Shown piece after piece: positions 4,558 to 20,194 of a stretch of DNA of 46,563 bases; positions within the stretch are counted from its first letter, which is position 1; each line of letters opens with the position of its first letter. The notes below the pieces were generated by a model that was not told the DNA's origin, searched no databases, and was given only the letters and a program-made list of their open reading frames with translations. Origin of the DNA: Acidobacteria subdivision 2 bacterium RH1 MAG20 (GTDB lineage Bacteria > Acidobacteriota > Terriglobia > Terriglobales > Acidobacteriaceae); the NCBI GenBank assembly GCA_002197545.1, contig NFUO01000084.1:1-46563 (forward strand), read 5' to 3'. The position numbers were made by a program, and so were the translations under genes.

Positions 4558-5229
4558 TCAAATCGGCCCTCCTGTGTCGGAACCACCGCTCGTCACGCCG
4601 CTGTGTACATGGCTGTCGAGGCTGATTCCGTTGCCCTTGACATCCTCGGTGACGGTAAGAGACTGACTCATTGTGGCATTACCTCCGGTCTGTTGCAATG
4701 CTCCATTGAGGACAATGTTCGGAGCCTGGAGGGTAATCGTTCCCGGAGAAACGATAGTGATTCCGCTTGAGTTGAACTGGACAAATTGAGAGGGAGAGCC
4801 GTTAAGCAGTCCTCCGAGGTACATCCCGTCACCAAAATCATGTGTCCTGAAACTTCCGGGATTGCTCTGCGCCTTGGTGCTTTTGACGTTTGTGATGTCT
4901 CGGCTGGCGAATACTGCGATTCCTATGTCGCCGGGAGCTGGGTCAAGAATGACGGCATTTGCACCACCTTGAACCCGAAGGTAGGGAAGGCCGTACATTG
5001 TGACGTGGGGAGTTGCCACCATTTGACCGCTAATCTGGTTCACCAGAATCTGTACATCTACCGTCCCGACCGGGGAAGCGTCTCCGTCGTTCGAGCATGC
5101 AATCACCTTGACGATGGTCGCCGTCTGCACCTTGGCGAGAGCCTGCTGGATAACGAAGAGAAGATTGTTGTGAACGCCCCAAAGACTGAAGGGCTGCAAC
5201 ATTCCAGCGGGATTGAGAGTTGAACCCAT
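4558..5229 (-). CDS. Central baseplate spike protein (Gp138-N/gpV-like)
   Basis: 223 aa. The N-terminal 100 residues resemble the OB-fold of Gp138-type spikes (VIACSNDGDASPVGTVDVQI, then LPYLRVQGG, then PGDIGIAVFASRDI). After residue 140 comes a beta-prism stretch (ITIVSPGTITLQAPNIVLNG). The end carries HVHSGVTSGG...GGPI, the HxH apex motif that binds an iron ion at the tip of membrane-piercing spikes in P2 and phi92. The protein should be the needle at the centre of the baseplate that punctures the outer membrane. Confidence 0.85.
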   Translation of the reverse strand: MGSTLNPAGMLQPFSLWGVHNNLLFVIQQALAKVQTATIVKVIACSNDGDASPVGTVDVQILVNQISGQMVATPHVTMYGLPYLRVQGGANAVILDPAPGDIGIAVFASRDITNVKSTKAQSNPGSFRTHDFGDGMYLGGLLNGSPSQFVQFNSSGITIVSPGTITLQAPNIVLNGALQQTGGNATMSQSLTVTEDVKGNGISLDSHVHSGVTSGGSDTGGPI

Positions 5230-18046: not shown

Positions 18047-18598
18047 TTTCCTCTCCAGTTGGCTGTCTGCTGCCATTACATCAGAACCCGCGCGGCCCGC
18101 TTTCACCAGTGCTACATGATTGCCCTGAATGTCCCGCATCACTCCGTCGTACCGCTGTCCCTCGTACATCCCCGGAGTCATGTCGGCACGATACCGATAC
18201 GAGGCTGAAAGCTCCCGAACGGTGTCCGTCTCGACGCCCGCAATTGCTTCTGCGTCCCAGACGGCTATGTCCGCAATGAGATAAGGAGCCAGAAACTCCA
18301 CGTCCGAGCCGATAGCCCCCGCGATTGACTCCTGTTTCGGGTCTTCCGCACTCACTGCCGTGTGCGTGAACATGAGCTGATTGCGGGCAAAAGAAGGCGC
18401 GGCCTTCGCAAGTTCGCCTGGGTCGCGCAGAAGGTAATAGACGCGCTCCGGCTCCAGACCTAGTTTGTCTGCGTCGGGAATCTCGCGTCCGTAATAGGGA
18501 TTGACCGTAGCCTTGGAAATCGGCGTGCGAAGGATGTGCAACCTTCCGTCCGCGTCGTATCGGCGATTCTTCAGGGCTGCGTCGCACGCAATCTCCAT
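17156..18598 (-). CDS. DUF2213 prohead protease fused to scaffold
   Basis: 480 aa from ATG at 18598. Residues 1-180 fit DUF2213, the prohead protease: LRTPISKATVNPYYG, then NQLMFTHTAVSAEDPKQESI, then LSASYRYRADMTPG and GNHVALVKAGRAG. Residues 185-480 are a scaffold-like region with an extremely charged central stretch (Glu, Lys and Asp runs around 280-420), probably coiled coil. The gene lies directly upstream of cement and capsid genes. A nested start at 18046 with a strong ribosome site probably yields the scaffold alone, as Nu3 does within lambda C. Confidence 0.82.
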   Translation of the reverse strand: MEIACDAALKNRRYDADGRLHILRTPISKATVNPYYGREIPDADKLGLEPERVYYLLRDPGELAKAAPSFARNQLMFTHTAVSAEDPKQESIAGAIGSDVEFLAPYLIADIAVWDAEAIAGVETDTVRELSASYRYRADMTPGMYEGQRYDGVMRDIQGNHVALVKAGRAGSDVMAADSQLERKMETKFGKALYAILCAASPKLAADAKLKPLVIGMTRKQCDLKALEPKLLAMDSELRKPETLAAMDAAKDAAEEEETEEEKKEREAKDKKAKDRKTAKDMSFDEWAKDEEEMSEDKRKARDAEEDDEDKAKRKEYEKKAEDAMKTACDDFDGLVSKLEGKGYSKEYATKVAGKVANEKGDKAKDKKAKDSEEDEKKKAEDRMKHAMDEFRAELREAEDARRAVRAVVGDVLAQDSAEGIYTFALDQMKVDHKDVKGVASLRALFNLAQQASKPAPRVAMDGVNVEEKFANAGRQIQVM

Positions 18599-18652
18599 AG
18601 GTAATCTCGCTTTAGAGCCTTGCACTATGAAAACAGGGGCGCAAGATAGCAG

Positions 18653-18681
18653 TTGACAAAAGAAAGGCGTTTGCCTATACT
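18653..18681 (+). promoter_or_regulatory. Strong sigma-70 promoter of tRNA-like leader RNA
   Basis: TTGACA at 18653-18658 and TATACT at 18676-18681 with a 17-base spacer. The -35 is perfect and the -10 has five of six consensus bases. The start of transcription would fall around 18688, at the first bases of the structured element. Confidence 0.85.
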
Positions 18682-18686
18682 GAAAT

Positions 18687-18845
18687 TGCAATGGGCGAGT
18701 GGCGAAATTGGTAAACGCGACCTTGAGGGAGAATATCTCGATGAGGTAGGTTTCCGAATCAACGGAAGCTGCTGGCAGGAGTGGGCATAATTAGCCCACG
18801 TGTGGGTTCGAGTCCCACCTCGGAAAACCTGCACATACCATTGCA
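18687..18845 (+). ncRNA. tRNA-Leu-like structured RNA, expanded, upstream of a small operon
   Basis: The 5' part carries a class II (Leu-type) D-arm: T at 18700, stem GCG/CGC (18702-18704/18716-18718), and an AAATTGGTAAA loop. ACCTTGAGG at 18720-18728 resembles the anticodon region of tRNA-Leu(GAG). The 3' part has a variable-arm-like hairpin (GTGGGC/GCCCAC, 18781-18786/18794-18799) and a perfect T-arm (GTGGG-TTCGAGT-CCCAC, 18802-18818). CGAG (18696-18699) pairs with CTCG (18819-18822) where acceptor pairs 4-7 should be. Some 48 extra bases, including hairpin TTCCG/CGGAA (18752-18767), separate anticodon and variable regions. An outer helix TGCAATGG/CCATTGCA (18687-18694/18838-18845) closes the element just before the ribosome site of the next gene. 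It could be a degenerate tRNA or a regulatory tRNA mimic. Confidence 0.6.
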
Positions 18846-18857
18846 GAGGATAATTAA

Positions 18858-19013
18858 ATGGTTTCTATGGAAGAGTTCATTGGACAGCTAATGAAAGCCT
18901 CTGGAGAAAAACTAGACCAGATGGCAAGCGGAATGATGCGTACTCTTGTACGAGAATACGGTGAATCTGACGATGCTTTCCGCAAGCGTTTGATTGCGTG
19001 GATTGGCAAATGA
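18858..19013 (+). CDS. Small helical protein of the plus-strand island
   Basis: 51 aa from ATG at 18858 with AGAGGA eight bases upstream. The sequence (MEEFIGQLMKASGEKLDQM, REYGESDDAFRKRLIAWIGK) is helical and amphipathic. It is the first gene after the tRNA-like RNA and is coupled by ATGA to the zinc-ribbon gene at 19010. I do not recognise a family. Confidence 0.65.
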   Translation: MVSMEEFIGQLMKASGEKLDQMASGMMRTLVREYGESDDAFRKRLIAWIGK

Positions 19014-19225
19014 TCCGATCAACGTATTGCCGCCGTGGCCACAAGCTCAAGCTCGGAAAAGATGGCCGTCAGCGCTGCCCCATATGCCAGAGCACGTATC
19101 TGAAAAGGTGGCGGGAGACGCAGAAAACACAAACAAGCGCCCACTGGAAAGACGTAACGCCAGAGCAGGTCGAGGAAGACATGCGCTGCCTGATTAGCCT
19201 CACGGAGCAGAAAGGGAGCAAATGA
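19010..19225 (+). CDS. Small zinc-ribbon protein
   Basis: 71 aa from ATG at 19010, overlapping the previous stop (ATGA). YCRRGH and RCPICQ supply a C-x3-H...C-x2-C zinc site typical of tiny phage HNH-like or zinc-ribbon proteins; no catalytic His pair follows. The remainder is a charged helix. It probably binds nucleic acid or protein; function is unknown. Confidence 0.65.
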   Translation: MIRSTYCRRGHKLKLGKDGRQRCPICQSTYLKRWRETQKTQTSAHWKDVTPEQVEEDMRCLISLTEQKGSK

Positions 19226-19413
19226 ACTGGCACCGTGTCGAAGATGAACTACCGGCAGACGAACGCAGCGTTTTGTGCTACGCGCGCGCCCCTTTCAAGG
19301 GTGCTATCGAGTACCAGGTAGGATTCTATCTTTGCATTGGGGAATGGTGCGAGAGCAAAGATGGGGACGCAATCGAGGTCACGCACTGGGCTGAGCTTTC
19401 TCTACCGGAGTAA
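19222..19413 (+). CDS. DUF551-like small protein
   Basis: 63 aa, coupled by ATGA to the preceding gene. The pattern W-x-x-V-x-D-x-L-P (WHRVEDELPADE), then VLCYAR, then VTHWAELSLPE at the end is the DUF551 signature found on phages and prophages. Its 3' end overlaps convergently by 35 bp with the MuF-like gene on the other strand, so the two transcripts are antisense there. Function is unknown. Confidence 0.75.
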   Translation: MNWHRVEDELPADERSVLCYARAPFKGAIEYQVGFYLCIGEWCESKDGDAIEVTHWAELSLPE

Positions 19414-20194
19414 ACGGCAACACCGAACGTCCCACGCACCGGCAGTTAATCTCTTCACCTGGAAACACCCACTTTTGCACCGCTGAATCCCACATCCCTT
19501 TATCAACCAGATACCTCTTGCCGTTCATTGCAACGTGCGTGGGCCGTGGTTCCTTTCCTGCTCTGCTGTGCATCCAGATCGATTCCGTAATTCCTAATTC
19601 CTGCTGGCGAGCTTTCTGGACAACCGCATTCGCCTTGTTTGACTGGTCTCGGGCAATCAGCACCGCCCGGTCTGCGGCGACATGGAAACGCCCACGTATC
19701 TCCTCCGCCATCGACTTCAGGTTGCGCCCTGAAGCGTAGTTGCGCATCACAATACCTTCGACCTGCTGAAGATACTGCTCTGGAATTGACCGGATAAGCC
19801 CCACATTCTCCGCCAAGGACGCCTCGAACGCATCCCGCATGGCAGGCGTAAGTGTGAATTCAATCGACCATCCTGCGTCTCTGAGTGCTTGCCGGAAGGC
19901 CGAATCCGTGCTGCGAAACTGGTTTTTGAGGAACGATTCGGCAATCTTCGGAGCCATCTCGTCGAACTTGCCTTGCCAACGATTTGACAGCTTACGCAGT
20001 TCTCTCTGGATTTCCGCCGAAGGGAGAGCGTCCTGCGCCATTTCCGGAGGGTTGCGACTCCTTTGGGCGACAATCCAATACTCAACGCTCGCAGCCATCT
20101 CCCGTATGAGCGCGATCATGCGCTTCTGGTAGCGGCGCTTGACTGCGACGTTGGCAAAGACAGGCCGCGCGACTTTTTGCTTAATGATGGGCAT
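19379..20194 (-). CDS. Phage head morphogenesis protein, MuF-like
   Basis: 271 aa from ATG at 20194; a TTG at 20206 is the alternative. The C-terminal 110 residues form the Mu gpF domain: RAVLIARDQSNKANAVVQKA, then TESIWMHSRAGKEPRPTHVA, then PGEEINCRCVGRSVLPF with the CRC motif. The N-terminal part is helical. Encoded after the portal as usual; a few copies are expected inside the prohead. No extra toxin domain is fused. The 3' end overlaps the DUF551-like gene on the plus strand. Confidence 0.85.
   Translation of the reverse strand: MPIIKQKVARPVFANVAVKRRYQKRMIALIREMAASVEYWIVAQRSRNPPEMAQDALPSAEIQRELRKLSNRWQGKFDEMAPKIAESFLKNQFRSTDSAFRQALRDAGWSIEFTLTPAMRDAFEASLAENVGLIRSIPEQYLQQVEGIVMRNYASGRNLKSMAEEIRGRFHVAADRAVLIARDQSNKANAVVQKARQQELGITESIWMHSRAGKEPRPTHVAMNGKRYLVDKGMWDSAVQKWVFPGEEINCRCVGRSVLPFTPVEKAQPSA

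Follow-up and report, generated by a model that had tools for sequence, protein, structure and literature searches.

Introduction

tRNA-like viral RNAs are known. In plant viruses, tRNA-like structures are located at the 3' end of the RNA. Plant and animal viruses are well known to mimic tRNAs, but to our knowledge such mimicry has been little described in bacteriophages. In tmRNA, a tRNA domain that has no usable anticodon is combined with other RNA in between. Phage T4 encodes the species 1 and species 2 stable RNAs (rnaC, rnaD), which are small, stable and located beside tRNA genes. Plant-virus tRNA-like structures and the E. coli thrS operator are presented, in the review PMC9976931, as viral and leader RNAs that imitate tRNA. 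According to the same review, E. coli tRNA-Leu is recognised via A73 and D-loop/T-loop contacts, not via the anticodon; tRNA-Leu without the anticodon and variable arms is still charged, A73 being essential and C73 abolishing charging. On this account, a Leu body would suit a tRNA mimic that has no anticodon. A stand-alone Leu-type phage form of this kind was not found in searches of open PMC papers, in which no description of the RNAs reported below was recognised; descriptions in print beyond that scope are possible.

Here, we describe a tRNA-Leu-like element and its relatives, starting from a window of 46,563 nucleotides (GenBank contig NFUO01000084.1, positions 1 to 46,563). The element occupies a 259-base gap between a divergent DUF2213 gene and a plus-strand run of three small ORFs.

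Architecture of the element

A first-pass annotation had read the element as a tRNA-like structured leader under a near-consensus promoter, and this description is borne out by the retained arms and acceptor register and by the stability of the leader fold (see below). The features are listed in Table 1. The proposed promoter matches the consensus at 11 of 12 positions and is the sole promoter-like site in 18500-19500 at a threshold of 9/12. The match is not significant by itself, because shuffled sequence averages 0.7 sites at this threshold; a similar promoter is present at the equivalent position in relatives of the locus. From the usual distance to the promoter, transcription is predicted to start at 18687-18688, and the outer helix starts at the sixth base after the -10 hexamer.

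The Leu-type D arm was confirmed (19 bases, zero mismatches to the tRNA-Leu pattern), as was the perfect T arm. The four acceptor pairs (CGAG/CTCG) do lie in exact tRNA register, and the outer pairs are mismatched as described, which leaves 4 of 7 pairs; there is no CCA end. The core (18693-18825) measures 133 nt, in agreement with the estimate of about 48 extra bases relative to the tRNA-Leu genes called by ARAGORN, which served as the yardstick and span 76-87 nt (one of 76, the others 81-87). An outer helix of 8 bp (TGCAATGG/CCATTGCA) is indeed added: a Watson-Crick helix of equal or greater length arose in 0.21% of 20,000 letter shuffles of the flanks (p = 0.0021). It ends, as had been noted, immediately before the ribosome site of the three-gene run. 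Two attributions held in part. The anticodon region said to be Leu(GAG)-like shows a short resemblance, in that ACCTTGAGG is presumably comparable to the anticodon region of tRNA-Leu(GAG), but its stem has the wrong geometry. The class II variable arm has a candidate in hairpin 2, but this is one of three hairpins and is not clearly the tRNA arm.

Table 1. Positions of the leader element, its promoter and the adjacent genes within the window
Feature	Position	Strand	Evidence
Sigma-70-type promoter TTGACA-17-TATACT (TTGACA 18653-18658, TATACT 18676-18681)	18653-18681	+	Scan; similar promoter in relatives
Outer helix, 5' strand TGCAATGG	18687-18694	+	Sequence, flank shuffles; helix begins where transcription is predicted to start
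Acceptor-like stem, 5' strand CGAG (tRNA positions 4-7)	18696-18699	+	Rfam tRNA model alignment, register check
tRNA-Leu-type D arm region with U8, A14, A15, G18 G19	18700-18718	+	Sequence, tRNA model alignment
Hairpin 1 at the place of the anticodon arm; holds ACCTTGAGG, without canonical anticodon loop	18720-18747	+	Folding, excision tests
Hairpin 2, of 8 bp; possible variable arm of class II type	18749-18770	+	Folding
Hairpin 3, GTGGGC-7-GCCCAC, additional to the tRNA plan	18781-18799	+	Folding
U48, Levitt-pair partner of A15 (18707) in a tRNA-Leu	18801	+	U in 29/29 Leu-body elements
T arm GTGGG-TTCGAGT-CCCAC	18802-18818	+	5/5 pairs, loop TTCGAGT
Acceptor-like stem, 3' strand CTCG; following GAA unpaired with GGG	18819-18822	+	tRNA model alignment, register check
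Linker GAAAACCTGCACATA, 15 bases; 18827-18834 able to pair with 18800-18807, opening the T arm	18823-18837	+	Folding
Outer helix, 3' strand CCATTGCA	18838-18845	+	Sequence, flank shuffles
Ribosome-binding-like sequence GAGGA, unpaired in predicted fold	18846-18850	+	Sequence, folding
DUF2213 head maturation protease, 480 aa	17156-18598	-	PF09979 precomputed domains; PHROG head maturation protease
ORF1, 51 aa (ATG at 18858), no Pfam match above curated cut-off	18858-19013	+	Pfam
ORF2, 71 aa, zinc-ribbon-like (weak matches, below cut-off)	19010-19225	+	Similar ORFs directly after promoter in many relatives
ORF3, 63 aa, DUF551 (PF04448, just above cut-off)	19222-19413	+	Pfam

The view that this is not a normal tRNA was upheld by a covariance-model search, as the annotation had proposed, and by ARAGORN. 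ARAGORN called no tRNA in the window, neither at the element nor elsewhere, and Rfam gave no match in the window at its cut-off. The RF00005 tRNA model scored the element at 22.5 bits against a cut-off of 29 (E 0.017 in a 301-base search), and its alignment takes in the D arm, the T arm and the four acceptor pairs. Among the features of a functional tRNA, the element has the D arm, the T arm and the core bases A14, A15, U48 and G18 G19; it has neither the 7-bp acceptor stem nor an anticodon arm with a 7-base loop and a cognate anticodon, nor is it recognised by ARAGORN or RF00005.

DNA searches of phages gave no homologue of the element: one search matched only the head gene at about 19548-19897, a second returned weak matches, of which the strongest (E 0.006) fell outside the element and another (E 0.9) spanned the T arm of a tRNA-Leu annotated in a phage, and a further search gave no match, nor did a search of plasmids. 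The pairs of this exact element are therefore without covariation support. The covariation check that had been called for thus gave a divided answer, since compensatory changes were found in other tRNA-like elements, both at the same promoter slot and elsewhere (see below), but none for the element itself. The longest exact antisense match of the insert within the window is 12 bases, equalled by 27 of 100 shuffles; for the related element of phage BF1-TP2 (see below), it is 11 bases, equalled by 87 of 100. As these matches are at the level of shuffles, nothing suggests that the RNA acts as a guide or antisense RNA on the phage's own DNA.

Folding of the leader

The leader (18685-18858) folds with a z of -4.74, and none of 200 shuffles was equally stable. 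In the full-leader energy model, the acceptor (pair probability 0.00) and the T arm (0.01) lie outside the preferred fold; with the linker and the outer helix included, the minimum-energy fold beats the tRNA-like fold by 11.4 kcal/mol, a gap equalled by 11 of 500 shuffled linkers. In the bare core, the tRNA-like fold comes within 0.9 kcal/mol of the minimum, and the acceptor probability is 0.59, compared with a median of 0.93 in 28 relatives; the relatives' cores, folded without flanks, show gaps of 0 to 5.2 (median 1.45). The energy model fails to find the T arm in many of the relatives' cores as well, and since such models leave out tertiary contacts, the balance between the tRNA-like and alternative folds may differ from that computed. 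Should the full-length prediction reflect the true structure, the tRNA shape may represent a relic. When a growing transcript is folded, the acceptor probability is 0.47 at 18826, and an alternative hairpin reaches 0.87 at 18834; the segment 18819-18834 takes part in mutually exclusive pairings. No terminator-like site was found on the plus strand of 18500-19500. Among 51 inserts, the mean z was -1.35 (window insert -3.28) and some values were positive (e.g., L173, +1.81), so that inserts are not uniformly strongly structured.

The promoter slot in related phages

The neighbouring frames of ORF1-3 overlap by ATGA, and a protein search of viral contigs with ORF1 gave no match. The DUF2213 protein, used as a query against viral contigs, located 62 loci. 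Upstream sequence was examined in 42 of them; the others had too little upstream sequence or a partial gene, or were set aside by choice. A loose expression for the promoter matched in 36 of the 42 loci (in L107 and L108 at a different site), and four of the six loci without a match (L145, L150-L152) are only distantly related and differ in their surroundings. In many of the 42 loci, a zinc-ribbon ORF follows the promoter directly. The divergent promoter within the head-gene block, in the window (18653-19413) and in the DUF2213 relatives, precedes varying small ORFs that are often zinc-ribbon-like, and the 18653-19413 slot looks like a cargo slot. This DUF2213-related phage family was met solely in metagenome-derived contigs.

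A T arm is present at the promoter slot in three of the 42 loci, namely L119, L120 (the same element as L119) and L124, which represent two distinct sequences. It is absent from the remaining 39, and the element is therefore dispensable in this phage family. The L119/L124 element differs in type from that of the window: its acceptor has 8 bp and its T arm 5 bp, it includes one unpaired base and its hairpins are different, and the predicted minimum-energy folds of both sequences include the acceptor and the T arm. L119 and L124 differ by eight substitutions and one indel. Six of the substitutions form three compensatory pairs (acceptor end, middle hairpin, T stem), the seventh changes G-U to G-C, and the eighth and the indel fall in a loop. 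Counted from the end of the -10 hexamer, the 8-bp acceptor starts at base 9 in L124 and at base 10 in L119, or at base 7 in L119 if three further pairs, seen by eye, are included. Because the ORF that follows is not the same in L119 and L124, the tRNA-like element travels with the promoter, not with one gene. In this phage family, the promoter slot thus accommodates two or more kinds of tRNA-like RNA.

Leu-body relatives in other contigs

Viral contigs were searched with a pattern composed of a Leu D arm, a gap of 60-90 bases and a T arm (27 contigs), and with versions having longer (63 contigs) or shorter gaps (16 contigs); the overall gap range was 44-120 bases, and the window element fits this pattern. 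The same approach, applied to one genome per species in 84,980 species, matched 16 contigs. Because the patterns prescribe specific letters in the D and T arms, the counts refer to pattern matches, not to all such RNAs, and the Leu and class I patterns differ in strictness, so their yields are not directly comparable. Of the 27 matches with 60-90 base gaps, four were exact repeats of others. Six tandem-looking matches, consisting of a D arm plus another tRNA's T arm, were set aside (L002, L009, L013, L016 and L021 overlap an ARAGORN tRNA; L001 was excluded by eye). Among the remaining 17 distinct matches, 15 have a 7/7 acceptor, L010 has six pairs and L022 has, by eye, a 6-bp stem one base out of register. 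Many of the longer-gap matches score poorly for the acceptor and seem to be tandem or unrelated. Four of the 16 genome matches look real, i.e., L172 (Pararobbsia alpina; the same element as the viral L020), L173, L176 and L184; the others were set aside because a second tRNA arm was present or the acceptor failed. A class I control pattern gave 52 matches, from which 21 distinct elements with 7/7 acceptors were kept, and a Ser-body control pattern gave one distinct element (L185, the same as L186), which has a normal anticodon arm without excision. This tRNA-Ser body (L185, 9080-9189) carries the anticodon TTA, of ochre-suppressor type, and an unusually long variable arm.

Distinct elements with 7/7 acceptors, together with the window element, made up a test set of 56, five of which were dropped for containing a second tRNA. 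The set then comprised 29 Leu-body elements (the window element and 28 distinct relatives, 25 from viral contigs and three from genome contigs), 21 class I elements and one Ser element; L010 and L022 remained outside. The 4/7 acceptor pairs of the window element are to be compared with relatives in which 7/7 pairs are a result of selection.

L011 and L076 align in flank and body (88% across the 117 bases leading to the D arm, 96% across 375 bases starting at the T arm), but their inserts between the D and T arms do not align; the insert is therefore replaceable wholesale while the body stays. In the fetched DNA, L005 and L010 have the element alone in common (78% over 116 bases); their outer helices differ in sequence, and both pair. 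Compensatory changes were read by eye among L005, L026 and L010. These three carry a conserved tRNA-Leu-like RNA (L005, 5170-5301) with a core CTAGGG...GCGAGGCGCCAGAACTC and an outer helix; the pattern scan returned L005, L026 and L010 only, and the L010 contig is otherwise unalignable to L005 and L026, which align in part. In a flank test of 52 elements, only L005 and L010 were extreme (0/2000 shuffles each), so an outer helix is not general in the set; in the same test, the window element was equalled in 85/2000, since two Gs assigned to the acceptor strand are excluded. L020, L026, L201 and L222 show apparent outer extensions if G-U pairs or breaks are allowed. Six of 27 relatives (L006, L018, L025, L048, L078 and L104) start less than 30 nt after a same-strand ORF; thus, not all relatives lie at a transcription start. 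The L004 element has a 98.6% identical counterpart in Bacteroides phage BF1-TP2 (PQ571263, 3813-3956), located in an early region with recombination genes, and the sequence after the element differs between L004 and BF1-TP2.

Inserts and the anticodon arm

The elements were tested for whether one removal leaves a canonical anticodon arm, in comparison with shuffled inserts. The first-pass annotation had set a normal tRNA with a simple insertion against its own reading; the window element yields no canonical Leu anticodon arm by any single excision, and leaving the length of the variable arm free does not change this. A relaxed test (4/5 stem pairs, any anticodon) yields one solution, with the anticodon GCT, and at this level shuffled inserts pass in 5.9 of 29 on average. 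Three of the 29 Leu elements (L007, L025 and L036) have a Leu anticodon after excision (shuffles 0.15), and the same three pass with free variable-arm length (shuffles 0.82); like the window element, 25 of the 28 relatives give no Leu anticodon arm. With any anticodon allowed, 10/29 pass (shuffles 1.85, at most 5), and some of these other Leu elements might decode something else. Even before excision, L106 and L102 have near-normal arms, with the anticodons TGG and TAA respectively, that of L102 lacking U33; L012 has a 5-bp arm and no U33. On the excision and no-excision tests, 26 of the 29 Leu elements are called not Leu-decoding, L102 and L106 being doubtful. In L007 (571-699) and L025 (943-1071; reverse-strand coordinates), the anticodon loop of a tRNA-Leu body contains an insertion of 44-45 bases that folds into a long hairpin; removal of the insertion gives a Leu anticodon and a variable arm of normal length.

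Among the class I elements, 10 of 21 are canonical after one excision (mean 0.14 for shuffled inserts; mean 2.5, at most 5, for prefix/suffix swaps between elements), and two of these ten, L224 and L231, may be due to chance. Since class I elements also bear excisable inserts, phage tRNA inserts are not confined to Leu. Seven phage tRNAs (L187, L195, L205, L210, L223, L228 and L232) have inserts of 42-56 bases, consistent with positions 28/29 in the anticodon stem, and canonical arms for Asn, Gly, Ile, Lys or Arg after removal; most of them are in tRNA-rich loci, and they possibly form a small phage tRNA-intron family. The inserts of L195, L205, L210 and L232 have ACAGCAA in common and, by eye, could form an H-type pseudoknot. 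The L195 contig, a tRNA-rich phage contig, also contains a permuted tmRNA match (4623-4908; RF04321, 56.8 bits, cut-off 47).

tRNA surroundings and conserved bases

tRNA densities were counted in the fetched stretches around the elements, not in whole phages. The three excisable Leu elements are accompanied by 11.7 other tRNAs per 10 kb and the ten excisable class I elements by 10.3 (one of them by none); the 26 non-decoding Leu loci, window included, have 0.41 per 10 kb, with none in 20 of the 26. An intermediate density, 4.57 per 10 kb, was counted for the remaining 11 class I elements. There are, accordingly, two populations: excisable elements in tRNA-rich loci and non-decoding Leu elements that are mostly alone.

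Base 48 was left free in all search patterns, which fix base 15. It is U in 29/29 Leu elements, window included (pattern A15), and C in 21/21 class I elements (pattern G15). A15-U48 and G15-C48 are two forms of the Levitt pair, which ties the D arm to the variable region. As U48 is kept throughout, the core has been kept while the anticodon arm was lost. Of the 25 non-decoding Leu relatives, 15 have A at position 73, and the other 10 have C, U or G there; the A73 members with full acceptors include L004 (with its BF1-TP2 counterpart), L019, L023 and L184.

A proposed leader built from a tRNA body and the competing readings

The element still has the D and T arms of a tRNA-Leu, together with its acceptor register and U48, and there is strong support that it cannot present a Leu anticodon; it is equally well supported that the leader can form a stable structure with the ribosome site just outside. 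The reading that we tentatively prefer, at somewhat less than an even chance, is that this phage captured a tRNA-Leu gene, perhaps of the GAG type, which was remodelled into a structured 5' leader that does not decode, ahead of the small operon ORF1-3; the anticodon arm would have been lost and helices added. The predicted promoter would put the first transcribed base at the start of the outer helix, so that the 5' end would be buried in a helix and might shield the mRNA from 5'-end-dependent decay, i.e., of the RppH/RNase E type; the ribosome site would stay free. The tRNA-like core may form during transcription and yield to another hairpin once the linker emerges; it might also be used by a host factor that binds tRNA. 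The role of leader was chosen for the window copy because its predicted 5' end lies in a helix and its ribosome site is free; the compensatory changes between L119 and L124, the start of their acceptor shortly after the -10 hexamer and the link of the element with the promoter also count in its favour. Against it stand the preference of the full-length model for a non-tRNA fold, the lack of a homologue of this exact element in the searches, the 39 related loci without a T arm and the relatives elsewhere that closely follow a same-strand ORF. The first-pass annotation had also considered a decayed tRNA turned leader. The damaged acceptor of the window copy fits this proposal, but the retention of U48 and the addition of new helices are not predicted by simple decay. 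A remnant without selected function, lying in the leader by chance, is unlikely: the acceptor mismatches, the absence of the element from 39 of the 42 related loci and the preferred fold that is not tRNA-like are what it would explain, but the intact D and T arms and U48, the three hairpins, the outer helix and the fold z argue against it, as do the compensatory changes in the second tRNA-like RNA of the slot.

The main rival to the leader role is charging or decoy action in trans, which we consider possible but distinctly less probable. A Leu-type L-shaped RNA without an anticodon would occupy, or be charged by, LeuRS, RNase P or EF-Tu, or would serve as a decoy for a tRNA-attacking defence. 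The first-pass annotation had likewise suggested a tRNA mimic that might sense or hijack tRNA-processing factors. This is favoured by the constancy of U48, the covariation of the Levitt pair between types (base 15 being fixed by the patterns), the A73 of 15 of the 25 non-decoding relatives with full acceptors, the whole-insert exchange between L011 and L076 and the anticodon-independent charging described in PMC9976931. The window copy is a poor candidate: its broken acceptor, without a CCA end, argues against charging, A73 is missing in the other 10 relatives, and the full-length fold disfavours the tRNA form. A cis-acting switch, in which a tRNA factor binds the tRNA-like form and, in its absence, the linker draws the T arm into a long hairpin, altering transcription or translation of the operon, is improbable. 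The mutually exclusive pairings of 18819-18834 and the rarity of the 11.4 kcal/mol gap among shuffled linkers would suit it, but the leader offers no terminator-like site and its ribosome site is unpaired in the predicted fold; moreover, the gene after the element changes between L119 and L124 and between L004 and BF1-TP2, against gene-specific control. A working tRNA with a removable intron is very improbable: such phage tRNAs do seem to exist, as judged from the class I and Leu elements that become canonical after one excision, but the window element gives no Leu anticodon arm in this way and has no other tRNA around it, the excisable ones being found in loci with 10-12 tRNAs per 10 kb (1 of 13 loci with none). 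Integrases often use tRNA genes, and the element could in principle be an attP carrying part of a host tRNA-Leu gene. This is scarcely credible, given that both arms are present, the middle is changed and the location is a head-gene block, and that the BF1-TP2 relative is at 3.8 kb and the tyrosine recombinase of that phage at 62.7-64.0 kb.

A broader reading, rather unlikely as a whole, is that phages of several bacterial groups carry stand-alone Leu-type tRNA-like RNAs that do not decode but accept leucine or bind to and occupy tRNA enzymes. These would be tRNA mimics of bacterial viruses, and the window copy would be a leader-adapted offshoot. The features read by LeuRS (A73 where present, the D-loop/T-loop contact, A15-U48) would have been kept, and the anticodon arm exchanged for other structures. 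A recurring phage RNA with a tRNA core but no anticodon points to a non-decoding use of the tRNA shape. Such elements are easily missed: ARAGORN called none of the 17 real-looking elements with gaps of 60-90 bases; RF00005, whose cut-off is reached by L004 and L010, misses L005, L119, L124 and the window element; and in the PQ571263 record, a hypothetical protein overlaps the BF1-TP2 element and no tRNA is listed.

Comparison with known systems

The element has the D arm, T arm, U48 and inner acceptor register in common with tRNA-Leu (RF00005), from which it differs in its four acceptor pairs, the lack of a Leu-reading anticodon arm, the extra bases and the outer helix. T4 species 1 RNA has a tRNA-type T arm at its 3' end but by eye lacks the Leu D arm and a full acceptor. 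Both species 1 and species 2 lie within a tRNA cluster, and neither RNA is matched by any Rfam family at its cut-off. Plant-virus tRNA-like structures have a pseudoknot acceptor, unlike the element. The thrS operator binds its own synthetase by an anticodon mimic, whereas the anticodon is the part that the element has lost. Compared with tmRNA, of which neither ARAGORN nor Rfam found a match in the window, the element is much shorter and keeps the D arm. A 5'-terminal stem-loop that protects mRNA would enclose the 5' end in a stable helix with few or no unpaired bases ahead of it; in the element, the helix begins at 18687 and transcription is predicted to start at 18687-18688.
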